From: Methanocalculus natronophilus
Lineage (GTDB): Archaea; Halobacteriota; Methanomicrobia; Methanomicrobiales; Methanocorpusculaceae
Reading direction: 5' to 3'
Length of the DNA stretch: 64,000 nt
NCBI RefSeq assembly: GCF_038751955.1
Contig: NZ_JBCEXH010000003.1
Location: 138,740 to 202,739, forward strand
Below are positions 19,234 to 38,271 of the stretch, in pieces. Numbering within the stretch: the first letter of the stretch is position 1; every line of letters starts with the position of its first letter. Both the position numbers and the translations under genes were made by a program. A model generated the notes under the pieces. It searched no databases, had not been told where the DNA came from, and saw nothing but the letters and a program-made list of their open reading frames with translations.

Positions 19234-20250
19234 TCACCTGAACTGCTGCCAGATTTTGCATGCTCCTTCATGAGATACCATGCATGGGCCAACAGGTGTT
19301 CTCGGGGTGCATGCAGTCCCAAAGAGGGGGCAGTCTGTTGGATCAGCAAGTCCACGGAGGAGCTGGTCACAGATGCAGGGGGAACGTTTCTCGATGTGCG
19401 GTATGGTGATACCGTACTTTTTCTCTGCATCATATGCCTCAAACTGTCGTTTCAATGCCATGCCAGAGCCCGGGATGACCGGGAAACCCCGCCATTCGAT
19501 ATCGCAGGGTTCAAACACCTCATACATCAGTGCCTGGGCTTTTGTGTTGCCTTCACGGGTGACAGCGCGAGGGTAGGCGTTCTCTACTTCGGCCCTGCCG
19601 TCGTTTATCTGCTGGATGAGCATAAAGAGGCCAAGCAGCAGGTCTTCGGCTTCAAATCCGGCAACGACCTGCGGGACAGGGAAGTGCTCGTACTCATGGT
19701 AGCCCATGACAGTGCAGACATGCCCCGGGAGGATGAAGCCGTTTAAGTTTGCTTCTCCCTGGTCAAGGAGCCATTGCATGGCAGGTGGGACAACCCGGTG
19801 ACAGGAGAGGATACTGAAGTTGTCTGGCGGCTCCTGGAGGAGTGTCGCTGCGACTGTCGGGACAGTTGTCTCGAACCCGACTGAGATGAAGACGACATCC
19901 CTGTCGGTTGTCTTTGCGATCTCAACTGCCTTATGTATCCCCTGTACTATACGGATATCTCCATCTGCAGACTCAAGGGATCCCTCTGATCCCGGCACCC
20001 TGAGGAGGTCGCCGTAGGTGGTGACGATTTTTCCCGATTCTGCCAGACTGATTGCAGTATCGATTTCGCCTGCTGGTGTGATGCAGACCGGGCAGCCCGG
20101 GCCCATGACAACTTTGAGTTTGTCTGGCAGGACACTTCGTATCCCATGTTTTGCAATTGCTGCTTCGTGTGTTCCGCAGACGTGCATGATCCGGAGATCA
20201 GATCTGACCTGTTCCCTGATCCCGGCAATAATATCTCTTCCAACCGCCAT
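19234..20250 (-). CDS. hypD: Hydrogenase maturation protein HypD
   Basis: 338 residues, slightly short of typical but with all blocks. MHVCGTHEAAIAKHG (N-terminal Cys-Gly-Thr-His), VVMGPGCPVCITPAGEID, VFISVGFETTVPT, GFILPGHVCTVMGY, and a C-terminal Cys-rich region (SPCICDQLLRG, DCPLFGTACTP) that binds the 4Fe-4S cluster. With HypC and HypE it assembles the Fe(CN)2CO centre of [NiFe] hydrogenases, as needed for the hydrogenases of a methanogen. Other hyp genes are not adjacent. Confidence 0.96.
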   Translation of the reverse strand: MAVGRDIIAGIREQVRSDLRIMHVCGTHEAAIAKHGIRSVLPDKLKVVMGPGCPVCITPAGEIDTAISLAESGKIVTTYGDLLRVPGSEGSLESADGDIRIVQGIHKAVEIAKTTDRDVVFISVGFETTVPTVAATLLQEPPDNFSILSCHRVVPPAMQWLLDQGEANLNGFILPGHVCTVMGYHEYEHFPVPQVVAGFEAEDLLLGLFMLIQQINDGRAEVENAYPRAVTREGNTKAQALMYEVFEPCDIEWRGFPVIPGSGMALKRQFEAYDAEKKYGITIPHIEKRSPCICDQLLRGLADPTDCPLFGTACTPRTPVGPCMVSHEGACKIWQQFR

Positions 20251-20389
20251 TCGACTTAACGCTCCGTAACTGATCTCTCCTGCAGAGAGGAAAAGGTGAT
20301 ATGTTTCTGTTTGGTGGCGAGAGGGATATGGCTGTTCATCCGGATCCCATCCGGGAGGGTTCCGCCGGACTTTCGTCTGATTCCGGATT

Positions 20390-21115
20390 TCAGATTATGT
20401 AAGTCTCCGGGATCTGTTCCCTGAAGAACCGGCATATCCGTTTCTTTTCTGATTCGGAGGGGGCTCGGATGCCTGGTTCTGCACCGGGGCGGTGAAGGGA
20501 GTTGAGGTGGAGGATATCCGGGCGTATTGAGACTGCTGCCTCTCTTAAAAGCAAGAGTTCGGATTCATGGGTGTTCAGGCCAGGTATGAGGAATATCTCA
20601 AGCCATATTGCCTTCGTATATTCGTTTCTGAGGTTTATGAGCCCGTCTATCATCATGCCTGTCTCTATGCCGGGAGGGGGGCGGTTTATTGCATTGAATA
20701 CACTGCTGCTCACGGCGTCAAGAGAGGGGAGGATGAGATCCGCACTTCTGATCTCTGATCTGATTTGTGGATCATGGAGTGTTGTGCTGTTTGTCAGGAC
20801 AGCTGTTTTGTACCTTGGATGACTGGAGTGGATGAAATCCAGGATATCGCGGATCTCGGAATGAAGGGTGGGCTCCCCCGTTCCGCCGAGGGTGATATAA
20901 TCAAGCTCTGGTTCTGTTCTGAGGAAGAGGTCAAGCTCATCGAAGATTTCATCTGTTGGCGCATATTCTGCTCTCCTGAGGGTGAGGTGGTGGGTTTTTC
21001 CACATTCACAGTAGATGCAGTCCAGCGAGCAGGTGCTGCCCGGCACGAGATCTATTCCAAGTCATATGCCAAGGCGGCGTGACCTGACCGGGCCGAAGAG
21101 GTGGAGGTAGTGCAT
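20390..21115 (-). pseudogene. Radical-SAM protein gene with in-frame TGA at codon 18
   Basis: From ATG 21115 the frame reads MHYLHLFGPVRSRRLGI, then TGA (21064-21062), then LGIDLVPGSTCSLDC and on to a normal stop at 20390. Homologues read ...RRLG-x-SLGIDLVPG here, so the TGA replaces a Ser codon (TCA to TGA is one change). The rest is intact: the radical-SAM Cys triad CSLDCIYC, GGTGEPTLHSEI, TNSTTL and EIFLIPGLN. A GTG at 21046 could start a 218-residue protein that keeps the cluster but lacks the N-terminal strand. It is most likely a recent nonsense mutation or a sequencing error. Methanomicrobiales are not known to use selenocysteine. Confidence 0.75.
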
Positions 21116-21171
21116 TGGTGTTATCTGCTGTATTTGTTTTTGGAAGAGATACGTGTATGGAAGCGTGCTCT

Positions 21172-21219
21172 GTATGGGAAACGGTATGGAAAGGTGTATG
21201 GATAGATGTATGGAAAACT
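21172..21219. repeat. Four 12-bp tandem repeats (GTATGGAAAGGT-like)
   Basis: Units start at 21172, 21184, 21196 and 21208: GTATGGGAAACG, GTATGGAAAGGT, GTATGGATAGAT, GTATGGAAAACT. A further GTATGG lies at 21154. They sit in the 280-base non-coding gap between the broken radical-SAM gene and the TIM-barrel gene. No gene was found in this gap. Confidence 0.7.
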
Positions 21220-21395
21220 GGAGGGAAAATGTATGAAATAGAGGCCTGAAGGGGGGGGCGAACCTGGAATGGACGAGAAAATGCGTCTGATAGAGAGAGG
21301 TGGATTGGAAGAAATGGTATTTAGAGAGGAAGGGTGCTGGCAGCGAATAGTCTGATCCTGTATATTTATGGTCTGGCTCTTCTCAACTTGATTGT

Positions 21396-22103
21396 ATGTT
21401 TGCCGTATCCACCTATTGTCTCCACCGGGAACCGCTGCCGGTTGCTCTTGAGATGCTCGCAGAGATTACCAGTTCTGTTGAGCTGATGGATGACGGCCTC
21501 CACTATGTCAGCTCACCTGATATTCTCTTGAATTTTGATTTTGAGTACTCGATTCATGCCCCGTCCAGGGGTGTTAATATCGCCTCGCTTCTTGAGCCGA
21601 TTCGGAAGGCGAGTGTGCAGGTTGCGGCTGATTGTTTTGCAGTTGCAGCAGAGGTGAATGCACCGGTTATTATCCATCCGGGGTATTTTGCCTGGGTTGA
21701 GGAGCGCACGCTTGCAAAGCGGCAGATGTTGCGATCACTTGCTGAGATCAGGAGTGCTGCTGAAGAACTGGGTGTCCGGTTTTCTGTTGAGAATATGGGG
21801 AACTGGGATTATTTCTTCCTCCGCACACCTGATGAACTGCCGCTGATTGACGGAACCGGCTTTACGCTTGATATCGGCCATGCACACCTGAATGCCTGCC
21901 TGCCTGAGTTCCTGGAGCACCCCTTTGATCATATCCATATCCACGATAATGACGGGCTGAAGGACTCTCATGGGCCGGTTGGAACAGGGACAATAGATTT
22001 TCATGATGTCCGCTCTGCAATTGAGCGTGAACATGTCATCCCGGTGATCGAGGTGGAGACACTCGATGGAGTACAGGAGAGCATCAGGGCGCTTGGGTGG
22101 TAA
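21396..22103 (+). CDS. Sugar-phosphate isomerase/epimerase-like TIM-barrel protein
   Basis: 235 residues of the xylose-isomerase-like / AP-endonuclease 2 TIM barrel. Metal-ligand type motifs: YSIHAPSRGVNI, VIIHPGYFAW, FSVENMGNWDYFF, FTLDIGHAHLN, DHIHIHDNDGLKDSH and PVIEVETLDGV. These give the usual His/Glu/Asp set for a divalent metal. Many archaeal members are annotated only as sugar phosphate isomerases/epimerases; the substrate is not known. It is flanked on both sides by short 12-bp tandem repeats and has no operon partner. Confidence 0.82.
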   Translation: MFAVSTYCLHREPLPVALEMLAEITSSVELMDDGLHYVSSPDILLNFDFEYSIHAPSRGVNIASLLEPIRKASVQVAADCFAVAAEVNAPVIIHPGYFAWVEERTLAKRQMLRSLAEIRSAAEELGVRFSVENMGNWDYFFLRTPDELPLIDGTGFTLDIGHAHLNACLPEFLEHPFDHIHIHDNDGLKDSHGPVGTGTIDFHDVRSAIEREHVIPVIEVETLDGVQESIRALGW

Positions 22104-22410
22104 GGGCCAGGAGGGATGCAGGGGTACAGGGCTACGTGGGTTTTGGGTAGCAAAGCCGGTATCGCATGGTGGGGCTGTGTGCTGGTATGTGTTTTAGAAT
22201 GCGTTTTGGAATGCGTTTTGGATTGACCTACACATCATGTATGCCAGATTTATGGCAGAATGCCTCAATATCTGTGAACCATTCCAAAAGGTATTAAAAC
22301 AGCTCTCTCGTATAATGTAATGCAACTTTTCATGAGAATGAGGGTTGTTGCCGGTTTAAAGGGCTCATATCCCTGAAATGGCGGCATAGAATATAGTAAT
22401 GTTGTAATCT
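22104..22410. other. Intergenic region with 12-bp tandem repeat, no gene
   Basis: 307 bases between the TIM-barrel gene and tRNA-Thr. It contains three 12-bp units at 22191-22226 (GTTTTAGAATGC, GTTTTGGAATGC, GTTTTGGATTGA). The last ~100 bases are AT-rich and probably carry the tRNA promoter. No convincing reading frame: an ATG at 22116 opens a short frame whose end is just the translated repeat. Confidence 0.6.
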
Positions 22411-22482
22411 GCCTCGGTGGCATAGCGGTATCGCGCTTCCTTGGTAAGGAAGAGGTCGCGGGTTCGATTCCCGCCCGAGGCT
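22411..22482 (+). tRNA. tRNA-Thr (anticodon GGT), integration target
   Basis: Acceptor GCCTCGG pairs with CCGAGGC perfectly. Anticodon stem CTTCC/GGAAG closes TTGGTAA, giving anticodon GGT. The T arm is GCGGG-TTCGATT-CCCGC, with discriminator U and no encoded CCA. The 3' end (from 22468) is duplicated at 31257, so this is the insertion site of the element. The tRNA stays complete on this side. Confidence 0.95.
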
Positions 22483-22485
22483 TAA
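22468..22485 (+). repeat. attL direct repeat (tRNA-Thr 3' end)
   Basis: TTCCCGCCCGAGGCTTAA, identical to 31257-31274 in the same orientation. It covers the T-arm 3' side, the acceptor 3' strand and the discriminator of tRNA-Thr plus three bases. Confidence 0.93.
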
Positions 22486-22785
22486 GGAACTAAAGTTATA
22501 ATTCCCTGCTAAAATCGAAGCCCATTTTGCCTTTATTTCTTTTCTTACATATAATTAAAATCTCGCTATTCTGCCCGATTCTGAAATACGGCTTTCCCAG
22601 GCAAGATCAGAAAAGGAGGTATATTTCCACTGGAGCCACCGTTAATCATCATCACAGAGGCGATTAAAGAGCCTCCACTATCAAAGGCATATCTGAGTAT
22701 GGGAAGAAGGGAGATCATCAACGAGAGAGACGGTAGGGCTGTGCCTTTTACCCCCGCTCTATATGGTGCTTGACAAAAAAGAGAG
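22483..22785. other. Left end of element, no assigned gene
   Basis: About 300 bases from the tRNA end to the last small gene. It holds the left inverted repeat. A stop-free plus-strand frame (22585-22770) lacks an early start codon but has a GGAGGT at 22615. A minus-strand frame through the same DNA is also open. I cannot assign either. Confidence 0.5.
22490..22507 (+). repeat. Left arm inverted repeat
   Basis: CTAAAGTTATAATTCCCT is the exact reverse complement of 31232-31249. It lies 5 bases inside attL; the right copy lies 8 bases inside attR. This geometry suits integrase arm- or core-binding sites. Its end TAATTCCCTG (22499-22508) recurs in the polA upstream palindrome. Confidence 0.85.
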
Positions 22786-22941
22786 TTATTTGTCTTCGGT
22801 GCGATACAAAGCCATCACGCCTTTTATCAAGACGCCCGATCTCTCCAACAGCTTCTCCTGCTCGGTGATGATCGCCTTAAGCTCCTGGATCGTTTTGTCA
22901 AGGCCTCGCAGTTCATCCATTGGAATTTGAACGAATGGCAT
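22786..22941 (-). CDS. Element 51-aa coiled-coil protein
   Basis: ATG 22941 to TAA 22786. The sequence starts MPFVQIPMDELRGLDKTIQEL and carries on as one amphipathic helix (KAIITEQEKLLERSG), then a short hydrophobic tail. Five bases follow the stop of the upstream 158-aa gene, so it is the last cistron of the left operon. No family recognised. Confidence 0.55.
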   Translation of the reverse strand: MPFVQIPMDELRGLDKTIQELKAIITEQEKLLERSGVLIKGVMALYRTEDK

Positions 22942-22946
22942 CGCGA

Positions 22947-23423
22947 TCACTCAATCAAAACTATCTGGATCTTTACTCGATTGTGATCACCGCAGTGCTG
23001 ACAAGCATACCCAGAATCCCAGAAGAGCGCCCCGGCCCTCATCATCAAAATGCCATCGTTGCCACAATAGGATAGGCGTTCGTGTAGGGATAGGAGAAGG
23101 CTGATCGTCTCTGGGATCGGTTTCTTGCACCGTGAACACGGGATCGCAGGCTCTTTTATACTCGCTATTCGTTTACCTTCAACCTCGATCCGAAGGCGAC
23201 CACTCTTAACCCAGCTGATGATCTCATTCTGTGTGCGTTTTACCTTCTCGATCGCTCCCAATCGGGCCCGCTCGTTGTCCTCAATGCGCCTCTCTGCCTG
23301 GAGACGATCCCGCGCCTCGTTCGCAAGAACGATCTTGAGCTGTTCTGCTGTGTGTCCTGGGAACCGAAGGCGATTCTCCAATTCCTCAATACGGGCCTCT
23401 GCTGTTGATACCGCTTCGCTCAT
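22947..23423 (-). CDS. Element coiled-coil / zinc-ribbon protein
   Basis: 158 residues from ATG 23423 (MSEAVSTAEARIEELENRL), the start just after the preceding stop with GGAAGTGGTGA as SD. The N-terminal ~80 residues are a charged coiled coil rich in Glu, Arg and Ala. The C-terminal part has two CxxC knuckles (IPCSRCKKPI and YACQHCGDHN), a zinc ribbon. A nucleic-acid-binding or assembly role is inferred only from this architecture. Confidence 0.72.
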   Translation of the reverse strand: MSEAVSTAEARIEELENRLRFPGHTAEQLKIVLANEARDRLQAERRIEDNERARLGAIEKVKRTQNEIISWVKSGRLRIEVEGKRIASIKEPAIPCSRCKKPIPETISLLLSLHERLSYCGNDGILMMRAGALFWDSGYACQHCGDHNRVKIQIVLIE

Positions 23424-23424
23424 G

Positions 23425-23613
23425 TCACCACTTCCGGATAATGCCATTTTTACGATCGATCTGGATCTGATCGTTGACGGCTGTCTCTGTGTTGCCGCCG
23501 CCCTTCTCGCTCTGGAGTAACCCGATCCTTCGCTTGAAGTTCTTATCCGCCGCTTCAAGTTCTTCTTTAATCAACCTTACTTGTTTTAGGAATTCTGATC
23601 TTGTCATCGCCAT
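23425..23613 (-). CDS. Element 62-aa hypothetical protein
   Basis: ATG 23613 follows a clear CAGGAGAA SD. MAMTRSEFLKQVRLIKEELE begins a helical first half; the second half (GGGNTETAVNDQIQIDRKNG) looks flexible. Its stop is two bases before the next ATG. No family recognised. Confidence 0.6.
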   Translation of the reverse strand: MAMTRSEFLKQVRLIKEELEAADKNFKRRIGLLQSEKGGGNTETAVNDQIQIDRKNGIIRKW

Positions 23614-23687
23614 TTTTATTCTCCTGAAAAAATAATTGGTAAGAGGTAGTTACCATGTCTGGGGCTCCGCTGCTGCATCATCGCCCG

Positions 23688-23867
23688 TCAGTCCTCCAAC
23701 TGTGGTACCCATTTTTCTGATATGATCTCTGGATCTGTGTCGTCCGGGTGAAACGGGTTTGTGCGAGTTATGATCTTCGTAACTGCCCTTTGCCGCTTCT
23801 CCTCCTCCTCAATCCGTGAAGACCTGACACCCAGCGCCGATCCTGCGTTATGCTTGCCAAGAACCAT
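23688..23867 (-). CDS. Element 59-aa hypothetical protein
   Basis: ATG 23867 to TGA 23688, starting two bases after the 98-aa gene and preceded by GGAGG. MVLGKHNAGSALGVRSSRIE, then a charged helix (EEEEKRQRAVTK) and an acidic C-terminus ending KWVPQLED. Position, SD and coupling support a real gene; function unknown. Confidence 0.55.
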   Translation of the reverse strand: MVLGKHNAGSALGVRSSRIEEEEKRQRAVTKIITRTNPFHPDDTDPEIISEKWVPQLED

Positions 23868-23869
23868 AA

Positions 23870-24166
23870 TCAGAGCCTCCGAATTTCTGGGAGAAGGTGA
23901 GCAACCTTCCGGTATTCTCGTTCGATATTGATCCGATCGTCCGGGCCCTCTGGATGCTCCAGAAGCCAGCGCTCGCTATACCGCTTCTGCTCCTGTGGTG
24001 TCGCATCCATGAATCTGATCCCCGATGGGAGGATCTCTTCTCCCACAGCCCGGATCACCTGATCGACCTCCTCGGATAGCTGCTCCGGTGATATGCGCTC
24101 GTTCCTGTGTTTTGTGTGCAATTCTGCAAGTTCAAGCCGCCTTTTTGCCTCGTTTAATGTCGTCAT
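23870..24166 (-). CDS. Element 98-aa hypothetical protein
   Basis: MTTLNEAKRRLELAELHTKH opens a highly charged helical protein; the second half has PEGPDDRINIEREYRKVAHL. Its start overlaps the upstream stop as ATGA (24163-24166). No family recognised; probably a small cytoplasmic element protein. Confidence 0.65.
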   Translation of the reverse strand: MTTLNEAKRRLELAELHTKHRNERISPEQLSEEVDQVIRAVGEEILPSGIRFMDATPQEQKRYSERWLLEHPEGPDDRINIEREYRKVAHLLPEIRRL

Positions 24167-24438
24167 TTCTTCGCCTCCTCTAATGCTGTGATCCGCTTCA
24201 GTATCTCGTCATACTCGCAGTCCTTCAGAATGCTACCATACACCTGGATACCTTGAATCAGGAGTCTTGTTTTCGCATCCCGCATCTTCTCGGTATCCGG
24301 TGAACGAAAACGGCCCGATACCGCTTTCTGTCGAAGTTCTGAGATAACCGCGCTGGATATTTCCAGAAGGTCATCTCTGGAGAGTTTTCTTTGAGAATCC
24401 CCCGATATCCGCGCTTCGTTCAATTCCTTATTTACCAT
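24163..24438 (-). CDS. Element 91-aa hypothetical protein, first gene of the left operon
   Basis: MVNKELNEARISGDSQRKLS, then helices (LLEISSAVISELRQKA and DEILKRITALEEAKK). First gene behind a clear TATA box and palindrome at 24454-24500. It is coupled by ATGA to the next gene. No family recognised. Confidence 0.65.
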   Translation of the reverse strand: MVNKELNEARISGDSQRKLSRDDLLEISSAVISELRQKAVSGRFRSPDTEKMRDAKTRLLIQGIQVYGSILKDCEYDEILKRITALEEAKK

Positions 24439-24453
24439 TTATGCCCCCCAATC

Positions 24454-24500
24454 ATATTATTCTCTGATAATATCTCTAGTGCGCATACAGTATTTATAAG
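24454..24500 (-). promoter_or_regulatory. Promoter and palindromic operator of the left operon
   Basis: On the minus strand, CTTATAAATA (24491-24500) is a near-consensus TATA box. The perfect palindrome ATATTAT-TCTCTG-ATAATAT (24454-24473) lies where the transcript would start, 16 bases before ATG 24438. This is the typical position of a repressor operator. Confidence 0.6.
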
Positions 24501-24544
24501 TATGCTATCGATCTCGGATTTGCTCCCGTCTTTCGCTCCTGTGT

Positions 24545-24685
24545 TCATAAATCGCGATCCTCCGGATCTAGTCTGATCTTGTTTGGGCCGGGTGTGAACT
24601 CCTCAGGCTCGCAAAATACGAGCTCTAGACCATCCTCGCCCCGTTCGATTCGTTGAATTCGCTTGTAAAGTGTGTCTGTGTTCAT
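24545..24685 (-). CDS. Element 46-aa hypothetical protein
   Basis: ATG 24685 overlaps the previous stop as ATGA, with GGAGGAAA as SD. MNTDTLYKRIQRIERGEDG is followed by LELVFCEPEEFTPGP and an acidic tail, suggesting a small beta-rich domain. Last gene of the polA operon. Function unknown. Confidence 0.55.
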   Translation of the reverse strand: MNTDTLYKRIQRIERGEDGLELVFCEPEEFTPGPNKIRLDPEDRDL

Positions 24686-24882
24686 GCTTTTTCCTCCATG
24701 TCTGCCTGTGTTCCTCTCTCGATACTTTCGGGCCGCTGGCACTTTTGCCGCCCCCTCCATAGATGGGAGTGTTCCGGATCTGTCTCTGAGATCCGATCCA
24801 TAACATACTGGATCGAATAGATCCCCGGCTCAAGTCCAGCCCGCCTCCTGATCTCTTCTGGCAGGCGGATCTTGTAGGTCAT
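24682..24882 (-). CDS. Element AbrB-like small protein
   Basis: 66 residues. IRLPEEIRRRAGLEPGIYSI matches the core of SpoVT/AbrB swapped-hairpin DNA-binding proteins (the 'IP-x-E-I-R-x-x-x-G-x-x-x-G' pattern). The C-terminal half is basic and polar. ATG overlaps the methyltransferase stop as ATGA. It may be a regulator of element genes or an antitoxin-like protein without a visible toxin. Confidence 0.55.
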   Translation of the reverse strand: MTYKIRLPEEIRRRAGLEPGIYSIQYVMDRISETDPEHSHLWRGRQKCQRPESIERGTQADMEEKA

Positions 24883-25400
24883 GACCTCCCCCCTGCTGAA
24901 TCCGGGGCGGGCATCCAGATAGGCCCCAGGCTACTAAAGACCTCGAAGAAGCGATCGGTATTCGCTCCCAGATAGAAAACTCCTGAAGGGAAGGGGGCCG
25001 CGTCCTTGTGACCTGAAAACTTTAAGCGTCCTCTGATGGAGCACCAGGGCCACTTAGAAAGACGATTGAACCATCGTGTATCTGTTCTGGCAGCTATCAG
25101 GATGATCACTTCTGAGACGTTCCCGGCTTCGTACTCATCAAGAGCCTTCATGATCCACTTATCAACCTCCCGCCCATAGGGAGGATTCACATAAGCCCGG
25201 CCGTTCCATCTCTGAAGAAGACCGTTATCCTCTTTCGTGAAATGTTGCCCGGCCGGGATGCTGGGAGGAGAGGGAGAGCACGGATCAAGGTCGATCCTCT
25301 CCCATACCTGGAGCACTGCATCTATGATCGCGTCCGGGGTGTACCATTCCTCACTCCTTGAAGAGAGCAAGGGAGAACCGGCTGCTGTGATGCTGTTCAT
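24879..25400 (-). CDS. Dam-type DNA N6-adenine methyltransferase
   Basis: 173 residues from ATG 25400, which has a strong GGGAGAAAGGAA SD and overlaps the upstream stop. EWYTPDAIIDAVLQVWERID, LDPCSPSPPS and the catalytic AYVNPPYGREVDKWI match the phage N6-adenine methyltransferase group (Dam superfamily). FPSGVFYLGANTDRFFEVFS is the conserved C-terminal strand. No nuclease partner is encoded nearby, so protection from host restriction or replication timing is likelier than a restriction-modification pair. Target sequence not determinable; GATC is only a family-based guess. Confidence 0.85.
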   Translation of the reverse strand: MNSITAAGSPLLSSRSEEWYTPDAIIDAVLQVWERIDLDPCSPSPPSIPAGQHFTKEDNGLLQRWNGRAYVNPPYGREVDKWIMKALDEYEAGNVSEVIILIAARTDTRWFNRLSKWPWCSIRGRLKFSGHKDAAPFPSGVFYLGANTDRFFEVFSSLGPIWMPAPDSAGGRS

Positions 25401-25549
25401 TTCCTTTCTCCCTCCCTGCGATCCCGCGTTGAAAAAACGATTTTGCCGCCCCCGTATCCGCATTTGGGACAAAGAAGGGGCCGCCTCCATCTCCCAGATA
25501 CGCTCCAGCTGTGGCTGCATCGGCCACAATAGAACTGAAAAACCTTCAT
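25397..25549 (-). CDS. Element 50-aa zinc-ribbon protein
   Basis: ATG 25549 to TGA 25397, in a frame different from the two genes it links. MKVFQFYCGRCSHSWSVSGR has the first CxxC (8-11) and LLCPKCGYGGG the second (27-30), a compact zinc ribbon with a basic tail. Both ends are ATGA overlaps (25546-25549 and 25397-25400). That makes it part of the coupled chain and argues strongly that it is translated. Confidence 0.75.
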   Translation of the reverse strand: MKVFQFYCGRCSHSWSVSGRWRRPLLCPKCGYGGGKIVFSTRDRREGERK

Positions 25550-25920
25550 GATCTTACCCCCTTAAGCGTGACCTGTCGATCGGCTTCTCCACTGGCAGGA
25601 AGAGAGACCGGGGCCGTTTTTCTGTTTCCTCCCAAAACTGAGATCATCGCCTTAGCCGGTACGGTGAACCAATCTTGAAACCCTTTTAGTTTGAAGACAA
25701 GGGCCTTTCCACTCTTCGATAACCTCATAAAACCGGCTTTCTGGGGCGATTCGGTCATTTCTTCATCTATCCGATAGACCAGAGCCGCCCCTTTCCGATC
25801 AATCACTTGAGCGAGATCCTCCCTCCGGATAACGAAGAAATGATCCGGCTCATCAGAGAGGTAAACACAGGCGGCCCGATGACAAAGGCGGGCATATCCG
25901 ACCTTTTTAAAGTCCGTCAT
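25546..25920 (-). CDS. Element 124-aa hypothetical protein
   Basis: MTDFKKVGYARLCHRAACVY begins a beta-rich domain, with FVIRREDLAQVIDRKGAALV, FMRLSKSGKALVFKL and DWFTVPAKAMISVLGG. The C-terminal 25 residues are flexible. It is linked by ATGA overlaps to the winged-helix gene before and the zinc-ribbon gene after. The alternating strands suggest a small barrel protein, possibly nucleic-acid binding; no family recognised. Confidence 0.65.
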   Translation of the reverse strand: MTDFKKVGYARLCHRAACVYLSDEPDHFFVIRREDLAQVIDRKGAALVYRIDEEMTESPQKAGFMRLSKSGKALVFKLKGFQDWFTVPAKAMISVLGGNRKTAPVSLPASGEADRQVTLKGVRS

Positions 25921-26231
25921 GCCTTCACCCCGCCCCGTTTATAGGTCTCATAATCGACTATGGAGACTCTGATCGCCCGGCCTCTTGCCCTCTCTGCTTT
26001 GATCAGTCCCAGCCGCTCAAGTTCTGCGAGCCCCCGGCCGAAGCTGTCCGGGCCGATACCCAGGCACTCTTTAGCCCGCTTGTATGTGAGCGGGAGATCC
26101 TGGCCTCTTCGTTCAACCCCGGCCCGATGCCATATGAGAAGTGCCATCTTTGTGGCAGAGTGGGCGGCCCGGTTTTCGCTGATCACTCGAAGCCATTTCA
26201 GAGGCACGAAGCCACAGTATAGATCAGTCAT
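25917..26231 (-). CDS. Winged-helix DNA-binding protein next to iterons
   Basis: 104 residues. LTYKRAKECLGIGPDSFGRG is a helix-turn-helix, followed by LAELERLGLIKAERARGRAI (helix and wing) and a basic tail. This is the pattern of small replication or partition regulators. It starts 73 bases beyond the iteron cluster at 26304-26382, so it is a good candidate for the protein that binds the iterons. It could also simply be an operon repressor. Confidence 0.7.
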   Translation of the reverse strand: MTDLYCGFVPLKWLRVISENRAAHSATKMALLIWHRAGVERRGQDLPLTYKRAKECLGIGPDSFGRGLAELERLGLIKAERARGRAIRVSIVDYETYKRGGVKA

Positions 26232-26437
26232 GACCGCCCTCCCTCTCCCTCTAAATACCTAAGTACTCCAAAGAAAGAAAGTAAGGGCGGGGTAGGGATC
26301 GCTGCGGGTTTAAAACCGGCAAGATGGCTGGTTATAACTCGCAGAATAGCGGGTTTAAACCTGCAAGATAGCGGGTTTCTCCGACTCTCTCTAAGACCTA
26401 TAAACCCGCGCCCCTGCGTGTTTACCTGACTTCTCAT
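26228..26437 (-). CDS. Possible 69-aa frame across the iterons
   Basis: Linked to polA by ATGA (26434-26437) and to the winged-helix gene by another overlap. However, most of it is translated iteron DNA (repeated R/GFKPA), and the composition is unlike the other element proteins. It may be a coupling frame that carries ribosomes over the origin, rather than a gene with a functional product. Confidence 0.3.
   Translation of the reverse strand: MRSQVNTQGRGFIGLRESRRNPLSCRFKPAILRVITSHLAGFKPAAIPTPPLLSFFGVLRYLEGEGGRS
26304..26382. repeat. Iteron cluster, candidate replication origin of the element
   Basis: Imperfect direct repeats of 22-23 bp. Units: 26304-26326 (GCGGGTTTAAAACC...), 26327-26348 (GCTGGTTATAACTC...), 26349-26370 (GCGGGTTTAAACCT...), and a partial unit 26371-26382. 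Each has the form GCKGGTTWWAAMCYGCARRATR. An inverted GGGTTTA/TAAACCC copy sits at 26401-26407. Iterons between a polymerase gene and a DNA-binding-protein gene are typical of plasmid or phage origins. Confidence 0.65.
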
Positions 26438-28161
26438 AATGCCCCGGTCTCCTGCTCGATCTCATCCAGAAGCCTCTGGATCATCTGCCAGGTATCCCGG
26501 CCGCGCTTGTCACAATACCGCCCCGGATAGGTGATCACTTCTGCATCAGTGCGAACAAAGCCAGCGCCCCCTAGCGCTTGCCGGGAAGCCTCTTCCATGA
26601 GACTCTGGCAGGTCTTGACCGTCTCCTCCAGATCCTCGATCGAAGACTCGACCAGAAAGGCATCATGTACCGGGCATAGAACCTCAATACCTGCATCCTC
26701 AAGCATGATCGCAGCTATTCGTAGAATATCGGCCCCGGTCGCCTGCATCGGCCAATTCCGAAGGGTCGATACCTGATCGCCCCCTGAGATGAGTTTAAAC
26801 TGCCAGCCGTAGGAAGTGCTGATCTTTTTCTCAAGAAGAGAGGTTCCCTGGAGTCGGTCTTGCCATTCCCAGAACCGTTTAAACGTCCGTTTATGGTGCT
26901 GAATCAACTCCTTGCCATAAGGAAGAGGTTTTCCCAGCTGTTTTGAAAGGCTCTGCTCCTTCATGCCATATTGAACGGCTAGGGCGCATACTTTGAACTG
27001 ATCCCGGATCTGTCCGTGCGTCTGTTTGGTCGCTCCTTCCGGGGCCGCCCCTGCCATTTGTGCGAAGCTGAGATACGGATCTCCCGACTCGTAAGCCCGG
27101 ATCATATTCGGATCATTACTGAGATAGGCGGCTAGTGCGAACTCCTGCTGACTGTAATCCACATACGCAAGCGCCCGGCCCTTTTCCGGCTTGATGAGTC
27201 CTCGCAGCCATACAGCCGGGCCGAAGATAAACTTTGAAGTAGAAGGAGCGTTCCTGCCTGTCTTCGCTCTGAAGGGACTAAGAAGCGTCCGGTTCCTTCC
27301 ATCTGATCCGACTGCCAGAGAGTTAAGCCGAAGTTGCCCCAGGATGTACCGAAGATCCCGCAAGGGCTGAAGACCGGGGTACGTCTTCGTCATATCCTTG
27401 AGAGTGTCATCAGTGAGAGAGAGCCGCCCGGTCTCTGTCCGGGGCCAATCCATACCTCTCTCTTGAAGATACTTCTCGAAGAGATCAAGTTTGAACGTCC
27501 GGCCCCCATAGACTCCATAAGACTGATCAACCTCTTCGATCAGTCGCTCCTGTAAGCGCTCCCAATGCCTCTCTAATCGGCGGAGTGTCTCAAGGTCTAT
27601 CGGTATGCCCCGGTATTCCATAGAAGCCACAGCAGCCATGAAACGCCCGCGCAGAAGCGTTCTGGGGCCATCTAACCGGCTTTCCATATTCCGGTATAGG
27701 TAAACTGTGGCCTCTACATCACTCTGACAGTAGTCAAGAATCGCCTGCTGCTCCTCCTCCGAGTAGGGCGGCCCCTCCATGATCCGCGCTCGCATATCGG
27801 CCTTGTGGGATGCTGATCCGGTCTCTACCTGCCAGTACTCGCAAGCATCAAGAAGGCCATTCCGTACTCCGGGAAGACCGTTCGTTAAGACTCTGTGTTC
27901 TGTGAAAAGATCACAAATATTATAAGGAACGTCCCAGCCCAAAGCGAGATGACACCCTACTTCAGCGCTCGCATAGTAGGCAATATACAGGTTTTCAGGG
28001 CTCAAAAACGGAGGAGGGGCATTATCACACTCACGCAACCATAACCGGCTTATTTCCTCCGTTATCACGTTCTGAGCGACCATACAGAGAGGTACGGGCC
28101 TTTCTCCATCGGGGGCGTAAAACTCAAAATCTACGGCCCAAAGTTCATTAAAGCCCTTCAT
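26434..28161 (-). CDS. polA: Phage-type family A DNA polymerase with 3'-5' exonuclease
   Basis: 575 residues; no 5'-nuclease domain. An N-terminal DEDD exonuclease (AVDFEFYAPDG at 9-19, LYIAYYASAEVGCHLALG, YCQSDVEATVYLY near 143) is joined to a full polymerase domain. Motif A is YVDYSQQEFALAAYLS (Asp335, Glu340). Motif B is RDQFKVCALAVQYG (Arg386, Lys390, Tyr398). Motif C is CPVHDAFLVES (His499, Asp500). Leu394 takes the place of E. coli Phe762, and Ala501 that of Glu883. All metal-binding Asp residues remain, so it should be active. It would replicate the element. Chromosomal archaeal polymerases are families B and D, so this one is foreign, probably from bacterial phages or plasmids. Confidence 0.93.
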   Translation of the reverse strand: MKGFNELWAVDFEFYAPDGERPVPLCMVAQNVITEEISRLWLRECDNAPPPFLSPENLYIAYYASAEVGCHLALGWDVPYNICDLFTEHRVLTNGLPGVRNGLLDACEYWQVETGSASHKADMRARIMEGPPYSEEEQQAILDYCQSDVEATVYLYRNMESRLDGPRTLLRGRFMAAVASMEYRGIPIDLETLRRLERHWERLQERLIEEVDQSYGVYGGRTFKLDLFEKYLQERGMDWPRTETGRLSLTDDTLKDMTKTYPGLQPLRDLRYILGQLRLNSLAVGSDGRNRTLLSPFRAKTGRNAPSTSKFIFGPAVWLRGLIKPEKGRALAYVDYSQQEFALAAYLSNDPNMIRAYESGDPYLSFAQMAGAAPEGATKQTHGQIRDQFKVCALAVQYGMKEQSLSKQLGKPLPYGKELIQHHKRTFKRFWEWQDRLQGTSLLEKKISTSYGWQFKLISGGDQVSTLRNWPMQATGADILRIAAIMLEDAGIEVLCPVHDAFLVESSIEDLEETVKTCQSLMEEASRQALGGAGFVRTDAEVITYPGRYCDKRGRDTWQMIQRLLDEIEQETGAL

Positions 28162-28189
28162 TAGAAGCCCCTCTTATAGTCCCTGTATA

Positions 28190-28223
28190 GGAATTTAAAC
28201 ACAGGTTCTAATTCCCTGTGTTT
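28190..28223 (-). promoter_or_regulatory. polA promoter with palindromic operator
   Basis: Minus strand: palindrome AAACACAGG - 9 bases - CCTGTGTTT (28197-28223) touches the TATA-like TTTAAATT (28191-28198), about 33 bases before ATG 28161. A related CCCTGTATAG lies at 28181-28190. The palindrome could act as operator, or as a transcript-end hairpin for the 184-aa gene. TAATTCCCTG inside it is shared with the left att arm. Confidence 0.55.
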
Positions 28224-28243
28224 TATGCGCGCTTCCGTAGTCA

Positions 28244-28798
28244 TCAGGCACGCCCCCGAAGACGATTTAAGACGGGGTGATCATCAGTATCAATGATCCG
28301 ATCCTTGAAGGCAAGCTCCAGCGCTTTGATCATCGTTTCAGGCTGATCGGGCCAGTCCGGCTCTACCAGGTTACCATCTGGCAGCCATAACTCATAAGAA
28401 CTTAAAGACCGGCTGGCAGAGATCCTTATCCACTGAGTTTTAGCTAGCTCGTAATGCTCCATCCGGCTCTGATGCCAGGTGTTATGCTTCCCCTCTGCAT
28501 CCGGGAGCCCCACATCTGAAAGGCTGAGAGTATTTGATCCGTAGGTCATCAGCATGTAGATCCTCACAGGCCGGGCTAGTCCCTGCTGGAGTAGTTCTGG
28601 CTGATACCGGGGCATGATAAGAAAGGGCTCGCTGTCGTCATCCTTGAAGAGAAAACAGTCAAAAACCCACTCATCACCGGGGCGTACTCTGAACCACTGC
28701 GAAGCGTCCGGCCTCCGTATCGGAATATGGGTTAATTGCTTCTTGATTGCGATCCCGGTCTCCCAGGAAGGCGGCAAGCGGCAAGCATCCAGATCCAT
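28244..28798 (-). CDS. Element protein of a phage/plasmid replication-associated family
   Basis: 184 residues. HIPIRRPDASQWFRVRPGDE opens, AKTQWIRISASRSLSSYELW is central, and the end FKDRIIDTDDHPVLNRLRG matches a signature I recall from bacterial phage and plasmid hypothetical proteins. In those genomes this protein often lies close to a PolA-like polymerase, as here. No enzymatic motif is seen. Together with PolA it supports transfer of a bacterial replication module. The family recollection needs a database search. Confidence 0.65.
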   Translation of the reverse strand: MDLDACRLPPSWETGIAIKKQLTHIPIRRPDASQWFRVRPGDEWVFDCFLFKDDDSEPFLIMPRYQPELLQQGLARPVRIYMLMTYGSNTLSLSDVGLPDAEGKHNTWHQSRMEHYELAKTQWIRISASRSLSSYELWLPDGNLVEPDWPDQPETMIKALELAFKDRIIDTDDHPVLNRLRGRA

Positions 28799-28799
28799 A

Positions 28800-28997
28800 T
28801 CAGAAGCCCCCCGAAGGTATGCCAGATCCTCCGCATTTCGCTAAGGCTGCAATCATCCGATCGAGATCATCCTCGATCTTAGTTAAAATACGGCAACAAT
28901 TATATATATTAGACTCTAATAATAGGTTAGACGTTTCCGCGTCTCCTGAGTCTGCCAGATTAACCCCCCGGCAGGCCCCCTCATTCTGTTCTATCAT
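28800..28997 (-). CDS. Element 65-aa hypothetical protein
   Basis: ATG 28997 (MIEQNEGACRGVNLADSG), with a helical segment RILTKIEDDLDRMIAAL and a Gly-rich tail. It overlaps the upstream small gene by 17 bases and ends two bases before the next ATG. Function unknown. Confidence 0.5.
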   Translation of the reverse strand: MIEQNEGACRGVNLADSGDAETSNLLLESNIYNCCRILTKIEDDLDRMIAALAKCGGSGIPSGGF

Positions 28998-29121
28998 CGC
29001 TTTCCTCCTCATTCAAGATCTCAAGTTCTCCTCTCTCTACCATCATCCGTGCTGCGACTTTGTGCAAGCGGGGCAGGTGATCGAATACATCCTGCTGAAT
29101 TTGGAATATTTCAGCTGCCAT
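28981..29121 (-). CDS. Element 46-aa hypothetical protein
   Basis: ATG 29121 (MAAEIFQIQQDVFDHLPRLH), a single helical protein with an acidic end (ELEILNEEESDD). It overlaps the AbrB-like gene by 11 bases at its start and the next gene by 17 at its end. Function unknown. Confidence 0.5.
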   Translation of the reverse strand: MAAEIFQIQQDVFDHLPRLHKVAARMMVERGELEILNEEESDDRTE

Positions 29122-29278
29122 TCTTGACCTCACTCGCAAAAATGACAAGGCGCCCGCCCTCTGTCTCCAGAGAAACAGTTTCAGCATCCTCTAGATGATT
29201 ATCTCTAAGCCAATCAGGCGGGATCGAGATCATCCGACTCCCTCCCACTTTGATAAGCCTTTTAGTTTCTGTCTGCAT
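29111..29278 (-). CDS. SpoVT/AbrB-type small DNA-binding protein
   Basis: 55 residues, ATG 29278 with strong SD GGAAGGAG. MQTETKRLIKVGGSRMISIP then PDWLRDNHLEDAETVSLETE is the AbrB swapped-hairpin, close in form to the N-terminus of archaeal AbrB-PhoU proteins. First gene behind the divergent control region, so a candidate autoregulator of the operon that leads to polA. Confidence 0.72.
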   Translation of the reverse strand: MQTETKRLIKVGGSRMISIPPDWLRDNHLEDAETVSLETEGGRLVIFASEVKNGS

Positions 29279-29432
29279 TTTCTCCTTCCTGAGGCATTCC
29301 GCCTCTGATCACACTATAAGACGGCTGTATTTAATATTAAACCCATATAAGGTATATTTAGTAATTTAATACCCTATATAGCGCATAGATCAGAGAATTA
29401 AATACTTATATCAGTAAAACCAATATATTCTC
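29279..29432. promoter_or_regulatory. Divergent control region of the element
   Basis: 154 bases, very AT-rich between 29320 and 29430. ACTTATATC (29405-29413) is a TATA box 20-28 bases before ATG 29433, giving a leaderless plus-strand transcript. TTTAATATTAAA (29322-29333) can serve as TATA for the minus operon. GGTAT...ATACC inverted repeats (29352-29374) lie between them, suggesting one regulator controls both directions. A small hairpin GAGGC-ATTCC-GCCTC (29291-29305) precedes the minus-strand SD. Confidence 0.55.
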
Positions 29433-29969
29433 ATGATACCTGATATAACGAAAGGAGAGAAAAAGGCGGGACAATCCGGCCGGGGCGCTAACCCAAAATC
29501 AGAAACATTAGGATTTTTAACGAAGAATAAAAGGGATTTTCTCAAAATGGGAGAGGAGGAGCGGGCCGGAATCGATCCGGGCATGCGGAGCCGGTATAAG
29601 TCGGATATCTTGAAGAAAGTACCCCTAGTCCTTGAAGACCTGCTGCTCGTCCTCAATTTCTTCGACTCTGAAGACCTGAAGAGCCGAATAGATCCCGATC
29701 ATCTGGCCTCTATTGTTTGGTTAGTTACGGCAAAGCTTGGGAGAGAAGTAAGCACCTTTGGACAACTCGATACCGTCCTGATGAATGCTCTTGAGGCGGG
29801 CATGAATGATCGAGCCTGGGAGACAAGAAAGTATTACCAGGTCGAAGCCACCACAGGAACCGGGACGCCCCGATCTAGGCCATCAGTGGACGATAGAGAA
29901 AGAATGAGAGAGACGATGAATTCCCTTCTAAGCGGGGCCCGCTCCCGGTGGATAGAAAAGAAGGAATGA
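29433..29969 (+). CDS. Element 178-aa protein, divergent from the main operon
   Basis: The only plus-strand gene of the element, in the position normally taken by a repressor or maintenance gene. A polar N-terminus (GEKKAGQSGRGANPKSETLG) precedes helical segments (VPLVLEDLLLVLNFFDSEDL, ASIVWLVTAKLGREV) and a basic C-terminus (SLLSGARSRWIEKKE). No classical HTH is evident. A leaderless TATA-driven transcript is likely. It is convergent with the integrase, 10 bases apart. Confidence 0.65.
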   Translation: MIPDITKGEKKAGQSGRGANPKSETLGFLTKNKRDFLKMGEEERAGIDPGMRSRYKSDILKKVPLVLEDLLLVLNFFDSEDLKSRIDPDHLASIVWLVTAKLGREVSTFGQLDTVLMNALEAGMNDRAWETRKYYQVEATTGTGTPRSRPSVDDRERMRETMNSLLSGARSRWIEKKE

Positions 29970-29979
29970 AAAAAGAGTT

Positions 29980-31194
29980 TTAACCCCTTTTCTCTTCTTC
30001 CTGAATCCGCTCTGCAAGTTCAATCGTCCGGGAGGGGCTCGCAGTCAGCCAGCGCTCGATAACCTTTTCTGCATCCGCTACGGACTTGATCGCCTCCTGT
30101 GTCAGCTTAGCCCCGCATCGATTACAAAACCAGCTCCCCGGAGGCATGACCGTATGGCAGCCGGGACAGGTCACAGGCTCCGGGGCCCCGCTCTCTTTCT
30201 TACCTTCAAGCTCGATCCCGGCTTGCCGTGCGAACTCCTGATCAATATCCTCATCTATCAAGTGAGAATAACACTCGATCATATTGGTGCTTTGGTTGCC
30301 CCAGAAAGCCTTTTTACAGAGCGTCTCCTGCATCCCGCCCCGTAATACATGCGTTATCCTGCTGTGTCGGAAGCTGTGAAGAGTGACCTTCTTTGTGATC
30401 CCGGCCTCTTGAACGAATCCCTTGATCGCCTTCCTAACGCCCATATATTGAACCGGCTTCCCTTCTGGAGTGATGAATACCCAATCGTCCGGGCCGGGGT
30501 TGCCGCCTGGGTAGGAGGCCTGCCAATTGGCTAGGTACGCCACATAACTGATAATAGGCACGGTGCGAAGCTTGCCAGTCTTGCCGTCCGTGCGTATCTT
30601 TGCCCCCCAGGGCAGGAAGGTTATATCCTTCCACTTGAGAGAAGCGACTTCGGAGATCCTGAAGCCGCCTTCATACAATACCCCGATCAGCGCCTTGTAT
30701 TTGGCCGTCCGTGCTGCTGAAATGATGGCTGTGATCTCTTCGGCTGTGAGAATATCGCCGTCTGCCTTGGTTTTTGTCGAATATCCGATCGTTCCCATCT
30801 CTTTGACCGTAGCAATCGGTATCTCAACAGTTCCCTCTTCAGCCAGCCAGGTAAAGAACCGCTTGATAAATTTTGAAAAATCGGCTACGGTGTTCTGTGT
30901 GTATGGTTTGCCGTCCGCCTTCTTGGCAGCCTTTGCAAGCCTGAGAGCGCCAAAGAGATCCGCCTTCTTGGTCTCTCGATAGGGGGCGCTGAAGAACTTT
31001 CGCACAGTCACTAAGATAGAAACTGATTTGAAATATCTGGACGGTGACAGCCTCGTAGATCGTTCATCTACAAAGGCCCTGATCAGGTGTGCGTCATCCT
31101 CGGAGATCCGCCCCTCACGAATACCCCTCTCTAGAGACCTATCAGCAAGTTTGTAATAGTTCTCTGTTGTGTGGTGGAACCTATCATTCTCCAT
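29980..31194 (-). CDS. int: Tyrosine recombinase (integrase) with C-terminal zinc ribbon
   Basis: 404 residues. An N-terminal SAM-like core-binding domain (about 30-135) is followed by the catalytic domain with Arg179 (GGFRISEV), Lys205 (DGKTG), His273/Arg276 (LHSFRHSRITH), Trp298 and nucleophile Tyr309 (IECYSHLID). A zinc ribbon (Cys343, 346, 357, 360; CPGC and CNRC) and a helical tail end the protein. All active-site residues are present. It would insert and excise the element at tRNA-Thr. The gene is intact and not split by the att site, unlike SSV-type integrases; its start lies 38 bases from the right arm repeat. Confidence 0.95.
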   Translation of the reverse strand: MENDRFHHTTENYYKLADRSLERGIREGRISEDDAHLIRAFVDERSTRLSPSRYFKSVSILVTVRKFFSAPYRETKKADLFGALRLAKAAKKADGKPYTQNTVADFSKFIKRFFTWLAEEGTVEIPIATVKEMGTIGYSTKTKADGDILTAEEITAIISAARTAKYKALIGVLYEGGFRISEVASLKWKDITFLPWGAKIRTDGKTGKLRTVPIISYVAYLANWQASYPGGNPGPDDWVFITPEGKPVQYMGVRKAIKGFVQEAGITKKVTLHSFRHSRITHVLRGGMQETLCKKAFWGNQSTNMIECYSHLIDEDIDQEFARQAGIELEGKKESGAPEPVTCPGCHTVMPPGSWFCNRCGAKLTQEAIKSVADAEKVIERWLTASPSRTIELAERIQEEEKRG

Positions 31195-31475
31195 ACTATT
31201 ATATCGCTCCCTCTTATCTTAATACTTTCGTAGGGAATTATAACTTTAGGTTTAAGTTCCCGCCCGAGGCTTAATTTGCCCATCGTTTCTTTTTTTGTCG
31301 TCATAAATTCGTTAGATTGTATTCTGATTGTTTTAATAAGCTCATCGATGAATCGGGAAGCATTTTGGACTTCTTTTGAAAGAAGCTCGTAGGTTTCTGG
31401 ATCTAATGATAGATGCATCCGCTGGCGAATACGCTCAGGGCGTGTCCATTTTGTCTTTTTAACACCATTAATCAA
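31131..31475 (-). CDS. Possible RHH-like small protein running into attR
   Basis: The frame begins at TTG 31475 (no upstream ATG; first ATG at 31418) and reads GVKKTKWTRPERIRQRMHLS, then DPETYELLSKEVQNASRFID and ELIKTIR. That resembles ribbon-helix-helix regulators or antitoxins. The first ~67 residues lie outside the element; the last ~47 are encoded by attR and element DNA and overlap the integrase start. Either a chromosomal gene changed at its 3' end by the insertion, or a relic of an earlier integration in the same tRNA. Confidence 0.5.
   Translation of the reverse strand: MINGVKKTKWTRPERIRQRMHLSLDPETYELLSKEVQNASRFIDELIKTIRIQSNEFMTTKKETMGKLSLGRELKPKVIIPYESIKIRGSDIIVWRMIGSTTQQRTITNLLIGL
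31232..31249 (+). repeat. Right arm inverted repeat
   Basis: AGGGAATTATAACTTTAG, exact reverse complement of 22490-22507. It lies between the integrase start and attR. Confidence 0.85.
31257..31274 (+). repeat. attR direct repeat
   Basis: TTCCCGCCCGAGGCTTAA, the second copy of the tRNA-Thr 3' end, same orientation as 22468-22485. It marks the right edge of the element. Confidence 0.93.
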
Positions 31476-31553: not shown

Positions 31554-31943
31554 TCACCCCGTCTCCCCCTCATCCCGACCCCTGAAAACCTCCTTTGCCG
31601 CCGCCATTCCATTGAGGGCAGCAGGGAATCCTGCATACACCGCCATCTGAATGATGACCTCACGTATCTCGTCCCTCGTGCAGCCAACAGCAAGTGCCAT
31701 ATCAATATGGGTCCTGAGTTGTACCGGGGCTGTACCGAGAGCCGTAAGAGCGGCAACAGTCGCAAGCTGGCGTGTTCGGAGATCGAGTCCGGGGCGGGAG
31801 AGCACATCACCATACGCAAACGCAACCGTCATCCTGGTGAGATCAGGTGACATATCATCCAGTTGATGAAGCATCGCCTGCACCGATTCGCCACCCATCT
31901 TCTCGAGTTGGGCGAGCCCTTTGTTGTATCGTTCCTCTGACAT
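31554..31943 (-). CDS. Carboxymuconolactone decarboxylase / AhpD-like protein
   Basis: 129 residues from ATG 31943 (MSEERYNKGLAQLEKMGGES). The all-helical CMD fold is seen: LRTRQLATVAALTALGTAPV, LRTHIDMALAVGCTRDEIRE, VIIQMAVYAGFPAALNGM. A single Cys lies in the 'G-C-T-R-D-E' segment, so the CxxC of AhpD peroxidases is absent. It is closer to gamma-carboxymuconolactone decarboxylase relatives. Substrate unknown. First clear chromosomal gene to the right of the element. Confidence 0.85.
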   Translation of the reverse strand: MSEERYNKGLAQLEKMGGESVQAMLHQLDDMSPDLTRMTVAFAYGDVLSRPGLDLRTRQLATVAALTALGTAPVQLRTHIDMALAVGCTRDEIREVIIQMAVYAGFPAALNGMAAAKEVFRGRDEGETG

Positions 31944-32205
31944 CAGGATGATGAATACCACTTGTGGACAGAAAAAAATTCGGATCTTCTGATACCTTCT
32001 TATGGCAGCATTTCCGATCAATGATGGAATGAATATCCCAGACAGCCTATATGCATTCGACAATGCCCAGAGCTATTGATTTTCTATGGTATTCAGATTG
32101 TAGTCACCGGATTTGGTACTACCGCAGAATGATCTGAGGTACTGGTCATCATTGTTTGTACAAGCACAGGGGCGTTTACCAAATTATTTACTATTATGAG
32201 ATCAG

Positions 32206-32403
32206 ATGAACGATCTGATCATGTCGGATAGAGAGGTGTATGCATATCTCATCACGGGCCTGGTTCTGCTCCTCATCGGTCTCCTCGCCCCAATACTCTA
32301 CTCCTTTATCCCTGAGCACCTTCAGGAGCCGATCAACTTTATCGCTTTCTTCTTAGCTCTCTTTATTGTTGTTTTTGTCGCAATCGGGCCAAGAGGGGGC
32401 TGA
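32206..32403 (+). CDS. Small two-helix membrane protein
   Basis: 65 residues. Two hydrophobic helices (AYLITGLVLLLIGLLAPILY at about 13-32, INFIAFFLALFIVVFVAIG at about 43-61) are joined by a short polar loop. A TATA-like AAATTATTTACTATTAT lies about 20 bases upstream. No family recognised. The 262 bases before it hold no other gene. Confidence 0.55.
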   Translation: MNDLIMSDREVYAYLITGLVLLLIGLLAPILYSFIPEHLQEPINFIAFFLALFIVVFVAIGPRGG

Positions 32404-32478
32404 CATCTGACTCATCCTTTCGGCTGATGGAAGGTCCGGTATGGATCGGTGTAGCTATCTCGTCGAGGCCAAATAATC

Positions 32479-33264
32479 TTATCCCCGGACACCAGCAATA
32501 GCCGAAGGTGTCATACTTGAAAAGCTTTCCCCTGAAAGAAATTCTTTCACCTTCATCCATGTATCTTCAATAATTGATACGATCGGTTCCAGAACACTCA
32601 TCGGTTTATCAACAATCTGCCTCTCTAAATGTAAGCTGTTTCCCCCCTCGACAACCTGCCTACCCCCGTGATCTAATTGAACGATCACTTCAGATCCATC
32701 ATCTGCGTAGACAGTATCGCCTGCCATTAATCTCTCCCCAACGGTTGCACTCATAACCCGGTTCTGTCTCTGAATATACCCTTTTCCTCGAACGTAGGTT
32801 ATTCTCCCAACTTCAACATCATCTCCATCTGGTAGAAGAATTCTATCAAGAACTTTCGGGCGGACATCGGTCGCTTCAGGGGTCGGTTTTGGTAATAGGG
32901 AGCTGCCTCCCCGTTCAAACACTATCGCCGTACCTCCGGTACCACCACTAAACATTGTCTCACCTCTATCAGCCAATGAAACAGTGGCAAAAGATCCCGG
33001 ACCAAGAATCAGAACATTATATTCCAAAATGCTATCACCAGTTTTGGCGGGTTGGGCGCTCATGCCCCGTGTTATAGAAACTGAGTATCCTCCACTCGAA
33101 TCATCCGGGGCATGTGTGATCGACACTACTCGTCCAAGTACCGATTCATCAGTCCAGACCTGTAATGTCGTATGAGATCCGGTCTGGGCTGACACGGGCA
33201 GAGCGCAGGTACAAACAAGAGCAGTGATTAAGACCAACATGCAAATCTTCGTAAAAATGTTCAT
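32479..33264 (-). CDS. Secreted FecR-domain protein
   Basis: 261 residues. A signal peptide (about 1-26, MLVLITALVCTCALPVSAQT) is followed by a FecR/LysM-like beta domain in the C-terminal half. This has KGYIQRQNRVMSATVGERL, AGDTVYADDGSEVIVQLDHG and a final helix (SIIEDTWMKVKEFL). FecR domains are sensor or scaffold modules of surface proteins. A related half-copy (SILEYNVLILGPGSFATVSL) sits in the N-terminal part, so it may hold two such repeats. Probably released or surface-associated. Nothing coding was found in the 306 bases upstream. Confidence 0.75.
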   Translation of the reverse strand: MNIFTKICMLVLITALVCTCALPVSAQTGSHTTLQVWTDESVLGRVVSITHAPDDSSGGYSVSITRGMSAQPAKTGDSILEYNVLILGPGSFATVSLADRGETMFSGGTGGTAIVFERGGSSLLPKPTPEATDVRPKVLDRILLPDGDDVEVGRITYVRGKGYIQRQNRVMSATVGERLMAGDTVYADDGSEVIVQLDHGGRQVVEGGNSLHLERQIVDKPMSVLEPIVSIIEDTWMKVKEFLSGESFSSMTPSAIAGVRG

Positions 33265-38263: not shown

Positions 38264-38271
38264 ATGATCCC

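Follow-up and report, generated by a model that had tools for sequence, protein, structure and literature searches.

The archaeal gene analyzed here can be set beside the radical-SAM superfamily (PF04055), to which its product is alike in the CxxxCxxC motif and in fold, beside archaeal selenoproteins, in which UGA stands for selenocysteine, and beside nonsense pseudogenes. The folds nearest to the model of the product are those of pyruvate formate-lyase activating enzyme, NifB, TYW1, and viperin, and the sequence identity to solved structures is 10–23% among the matches listed. Archaeal selenoproteins share an in-frame TGA with this gene; a passage of PMC2933860 confines them, at the time of that work, to Methanococcales and Methanopyrales, and a passage of PMC11227280 indicates that Asgard archaea were later added to the selenoprotein-bearing archaea. 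They differ from the present case in that tRNA-Sec, SelD, and PSTK were not found over their cut-offs here, and in that relatives of the gene carry Ser at the position of the TGA. The closest nonsense pseudogenes are two copies of the same radical-SAM family in the same archaeal order (genomes G010 and G041), both with a broken frame: the first has a stop plus a frameshift and the second a frameshift plus changed residues, whereas the gene studied here has one stop only. A literature search returned nothing on this gene among the matches listed.

The gene lies in a window of 64,000 nucleotides, i.e., the whole stretch of DNA that was analyzed, and its host genome is a draft of 2,003,496 bases in 143 contigs, with a completeness of 99.7%. 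Judging from its genes and its relatives, the host is probably a hydrogenotrophic methanogen within the Methanomicrobiales. The features of the locus are collected in Table 1. Translation of the window showed that the gene, hereafter rSAM, has a lone internal stop, at codon 18, and that its terminator is TGA. On the minus strand, the ATG at 21115-21113 is followed by 16 sense codons and then by the TGA at 21064-21062; this confirmed the first-pass annotation, which had described an internal TGA after an ATG at 21115 and 17 codons, with an intact remainder, as the frame is open past the TGA to the terminator at 20390. The in-frame GTG that it had placed at 21046 is also present, as codon 24. 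The read-through translation begins MHYLHLFGPVRSRRLGI, is interrupted by the TGA of codon 18, and continues with LGIDLVPGSTCSLDCIYCECG.

Table 1. Features of the rSAM locus and its immediate surroundings (window positions).
Feature	Position	Strand	Basis
Radical-SAM gene (rSAM), 241-codon form, one interruption at codon 18	20390..21115	-	Translation, PF04055, orthologues
In-frame TGA; same position Ser (TCN) in 35/35 relatives	21062..21064	-	Translation, alignment
In-frame GTG (Val24), earliest possible restart past the TGA	21044..21046	-	ORF reading
CxxxCxxC motif (Cys29, Cys33, Cys36), intact	21008..21031	-	Translation, alignment
Terminator of rSAM, TGA	20390..20392	-	Translation
hypD, downstream of rSAM, intact, ends in TGA	19234..20250	-	PF01924, 445 bits
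Xylose-isomerase-like TIM-barrel gene, divergent, conserved upstream neighbour	21396..22103	+	PF01261
Shared upstream region of rSAM and TIM-barrel gene, 280 bp	21116..21395	.	Spacer comparison

The rSAM read-through product matched the PF04055 profile with 50.8 bits, above the curated cut-off of 29.5. This match, together with the presence of uninterrupted orthologues beside hypD and the TIM-barrel gene in six of the seven congeners, shows that rSAM is not a chance open reading frame. The three cysteines of the CxxxCxxC motif, which we take to be the expected holder of a [4Fe-4S] cluster, are kept in rSAM and invariant in all 35 relatives compared. All nine of the listed NCBIfam models scored the product below their cut-offs, and an identity as TYW1 (TIGR03972) was rejected, with 21.2 bits against the equivalog cut-off of 317.95. 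The structure predicted for the read-through protein had a mean pLDDT of 95.0 and a pTM of 0.92, with predicted strands at residues 6-12 and 16-21, and Ser18 falls in the second of these. When this model was compared with solved structures, 3cb8_A was matched with a Z score of 21.8 and an rmsd of 3.0 over 223 aligned residues. The gene is that of a small radical-SAM enzyme, from a family spread across the archaeal order.

Uninterrupted orthologues of 241 codons, with 61–62% identity, were found in six of the seven other genomes of the genus, and a longer paralogue, with 42–47% identity, in all seven. The genome search found neither this longer paralogue nor a second family member in the host genome, where rSAM is the sole match. 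The first-pass annotation had matched the position of the TGA to a conserved Ser of homologues and suggested a look at sister genomes; the comparison bore this out. Codon 18 reads TCC, TCC, TCG, TCA, TCG, and TCT in the orthologues from the same genus, and all 35 relatives compared encode Ser there by TCN (L002-L014 and L017-L038, with L015 and L016 omitted as distant radical-SAM matches of weak score). A script assigned an ATG start in 32 of the 35 and detected none near the motif in the other three. The alignment of these relatives contains 44 invariant columns, and rSAM keeps 43 of them, with the TGA as the sole break and no frameshift. A further alignment, of rSAM and 31 other sequences, again showed Ser18 as invariant; in it the window row had been set to S by choice, and five sequences were drawn from the 80 bacterial loci of a contig search. 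No same-species allele of rSAM was among the 80 loci listed by that search, all of them bacterial, and the host genome possibly lies outside what it covers.

The constraint on the gene was estimated from its distances to the six orthologues, which gave dN values of 0.30–0.36 and dS values of 1.8–2.8, the latter being saturated. The dN/dS ratios, calculated by hand with this saturated dS, were 0.13–0.17 for rSAM against its sisters and 0.12–0.17 between the two sister clades, so no relaxed selection was seen against the six orthologues in what is a weak test, because dS is saturated. When the branch leading to the host was scaled to the mean of the sister clades, by hand from the distances, its length was 1.22 for rSAM, 1.22 for hypD, and 0.53 for the TIM-barrel gene. 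The six sisters share 127 invariant columns, of which rSAM breaks 17, compared with 0–5 per sister, but no other member of the set is as distant. Moreover, the first 23 codons showed protein-level conservation at least equal to that of the remainder. This conserved protein sequence and the ordinary divergence suggest that the stop is very recent, or unreal, or translated.

We consider it probable, at about 0.7 and judging from the sequence, that rSAM is a young pseudogene, a dispensable gene in which a nonsense mutation has arisen very recently. The Ser codon at position 18 would have given way to TGA only a short time ago, and the rest of the gene would so far have escaped visible decay. The lesion looks recent because all invariant columns but that of the TGA are kept and no frameshift is present. 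As translation from the normal ATG should end after 17 residues, production of the enzyme has most likely ceased, and most likely no functional product arises from the gene, the base presumably being real and the loss tolerated. In terms of what defines a nonsense pseudogene, a premature stop was found amid intact orthologues, and further decay, i.e., frameshifts or lost invariant residues, was not. Against a pseudogene speak the lack of a second lesion, the unseen relaxation of selection, and the lack of a second copy in the genome, as the whole family would be lost to the cell if the stop is real; the base in question is that of the assembly consensus.

The distribution of the family is in agreement with a loss. 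Among 61 genomes drawn from the genus, the family, and the order of the host, 37 had matches with E < 1e-20 (counted by hand), and in three of these 37, i.e., the host, G010, and G041, the match contained a stop or was split. The G010 copy (L182), from a genome assembled as one contig, has both a TAG and a frameshift, and the G041 copy (L183) has a frameshift and departs from the family at several conserved residues. The family's second genus is represented by 25 genomes, several of them incomplete, and six of the 25 keep a match below 1e-20, the broken copy of G010 counted. This pattern indicates that the family is dispensable, and its common loss makes a real nonsense mutation plausible. A recent pseudogene was one of the options offered by the first-pass annotation, and it is the one best supported by the single lesion, the intact orthologues, and the other broken copies in the order. 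As a nonsense mutation, the change has little weight and would mark a radical-SAM enzyme, widespread but patchy in its retention, as being in the course of loss.

A sequencing error was also among the four options that the first-pass annotation had listed without choosing. It is unlikely, though far from negligible, that the TGA arose from wrong base calling or a wrong assembly consensus in this draft of 143 contigs and that the cell carries an intact gene. Such an error would fit with a TGA that is one base away from the Ser codon TCA, with the lack of any other lesion in the gene, and with its being the only family member found in the host genome. On the other hand, a chance error that creates a stop should be rare within one window. 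Moreover, 189 open reading frames of at least 100 codons, taken from 100 kb of each of two sister genomes, were compared with the window; 95 of them matched it at ≥40% identity, over 52 stretches, and 49 protein genes, about 45 kb, were retained. The three stretches dropped, as not being protein genes of their own, were 22385-22483 and 50773-50913, which are short matches over tRNA genes, and 37997-38359, which has two stops and lies antisense to a small open reading frame that we take, by its look, to be Alba-like. Only rSAM has a stop within the conserved body, and the other 48 of the 49 genes have neither such a stop nor a frameshift, which argues against an error, as does the length of the contig, 273,644 bases. 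Four further query matches, at three places (9099, 45514, and 39327), showed one stop; it lay each time at the very beginning of a query extended too far, ahead of the shared start, and so none resembles the stop at codon 18. The split matches at the left edge of the window were parts of one protein that match each other. The consensus thus looks clean, since no other conserved-body stop or frameshift was found in the compared window genes, although a single wrong base may still be present.

A restart at the GTG at 21046 that yields a working protein of 218 residues is improbable. This codon is in frame, six codons past the TGA, and the open frame of 218 codons that follows it retains the CxxxCxxC motif, at the cost of the first 23 codons. 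The residues lost, 1-23, account for 13 of the 44 invariant columns of the 35-relative alignment (residue 18 counted), and the predicted strands at 6-12 and 16-21, including the first barrel strand of the model, would be lost with them. In addition, in 49 of the 50 structural matches listed the alignment starts no later than model residue 18; the remaining one is a fragment of 161 residues. Had the GTG long been the start, the protein sequence of the first 23 codons should not have stayed conserved as it has, and no clear ribosome-binding site was seen by eye before it. We expect from the structural model that the GTG-started protein would be inactive because the first barrel strand is missing. 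The internal start listed by the first-pass annotation is therefore disfavored, given the two predicted strands and the 13 invariant columns that it removes.

Even less probable is that the TGA at codon 18 is read through or recoded, be it by a suppressor tRNA, by near-cognate reading, or as selenocysteine. Conservation of the frame extends to both flanks of the TGA, no other rSAM copy is present in the host genome, and the base after the TGA is C, a context known to be leaky in other organisms; all these points would suit recoding. The selenocysteine machinery, i.e., tRNA-Sec, SepSecS (PF05889), SelD, and PSTK, was searched for in the host genome and eight relatives, along with 14 control genomes for tRNA-Sec, SelD, and PSTK. 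The first-pass annotation had named selC as a gene to look for; the best tRNA-Sec candidate (RF01852) in the host reached 37.3 bits against a cut-off of 47, with 150 of 228 candidates scored, and none exceeded the cut-off in the nine genomes, compared with five of the 14 controls. Six sub-threshold matches in the host were Arg, Gly, Ser, Arg, Lys, and Arg tRNAs. PSTK (TIGR03574) had no match in the host and none over its cut-off in the nine genomes (one of the 14 controls was over), and SelD reached at best 65.2 bits in the host against a cut-off of 125, with none over in the nine genomes and two of the 14 controls over, by a model that may miss archaeal SelD. PF05889, the family that holds SepSecS, was over its cut-off in 9/9 genomes, which is a point in favor of recoding; the host match, of 63.4 bits versus 21.1, is an open reading frame of 393 aa that looks like SepCysS, the Cys-forming relative of SepSecS. 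A general Rfam scan of the window, which is not specific for SECIS elements, gave three tRNAs only over the gathering scores.

The tRNAs of the host were read with ARAGORN at the 42 RF00005 places, of which 40 were ordinary tRNAs. One locus (L143) also held an extra tRNA-Val outside the 42, so the RF00005 list missed at least one tRNA. The two intron-bearing loci were tRNA-Met(cat) (L173) and a locus called Glu(ctc) by ARAGORN that by eye is tRNA-Trp(CCA) with an intron (L179). No UCA anticodon was seen among the tRNAs at these 42 places plus the extra one, a set that is incomplete and has, e.g., no tRNA-Tyr. In the 48 sister-matched protein genes whose end lies inside the window, the terminator was TGA in 23, TAA in 21, and TAG in 4, and both rSAM and hypD end in TGA. 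A reassigned TGA codon was rejected on this use of TGA as a terminator in 23 of the 48 genes. The same use argues against recoding, as do the lack of a PSTK match, the tRNA-Sec and SelD scores below the cut-offs, the unseen UCA anticodon, and the occurrence of Ser, not Cys, at residue 18 in all 35 relatives. The decoding of TGA put forward in the first-pass annotation is hence unsupported, with PSTK, tRNA-Sec, and SelD not over their cut-offs and TGA a working terminator. A very improbable variant is a selenium-independent read-through, low-level or regulated, by which the genome's only copy of the enzyme would still be made from the interrupted gene; the case would matter only if protein evidence showed translation of the TGA without selenocysteine machinery.

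Turning to the surroundings, the rSAM orthologues adjoin hypD in 6/6 same-genus loci, with the TIM-barrel gene on the other side. Nine more relatives have a hypD match in the 1.5-kb flank, which brings the total to 15 of the 35, and a functional link of rSAM to hydrogenase maturation is possible from this gene order. The spacer between rSAM and the TIM-barrel gene measures 280 bp here and 91–151 bp in the six sisters. It contains four copies of TGTATGG and one of TGTATGA within 83 bp, which may be operator repeats or part of an insertion. A sigma-70 and terminator scan of 20200-21450 gave two promoter-like hits (0.9 in shuffles) and one terminator-like hit (1.0 in shuffles), i.e., no signal, with archaeal promoters outside the model. 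Farther to the right, an integrated element of about 8.8 kb was observed at 22468-31274, bounded by an 18-bp direct repeat at 22468-22485, across the 3' end of a tRNA-Thr gene, and at 31257-31274. A phage-type integrase (29980-31194, minus strand) lies beside the latter repeat, and the element also has a family-A DNA polymerase (26434-28161, minus strand) and a Dam-type methyltransferase (24879-25529, minus strand). Just outside the right repeat, at 31557-33264, two open reading frames are 97–98% identical to proteins of the sister genome G001, compared with 44–92% for the other sister-matched window genes, and this identity points to a recent exchange between species. Finally, a 12-bp tandem repeat, TGGAATGCGTTT, was observed in 3.3 copies at 22183-22222, between the TIM-barrel gene and tRNA-Thr.
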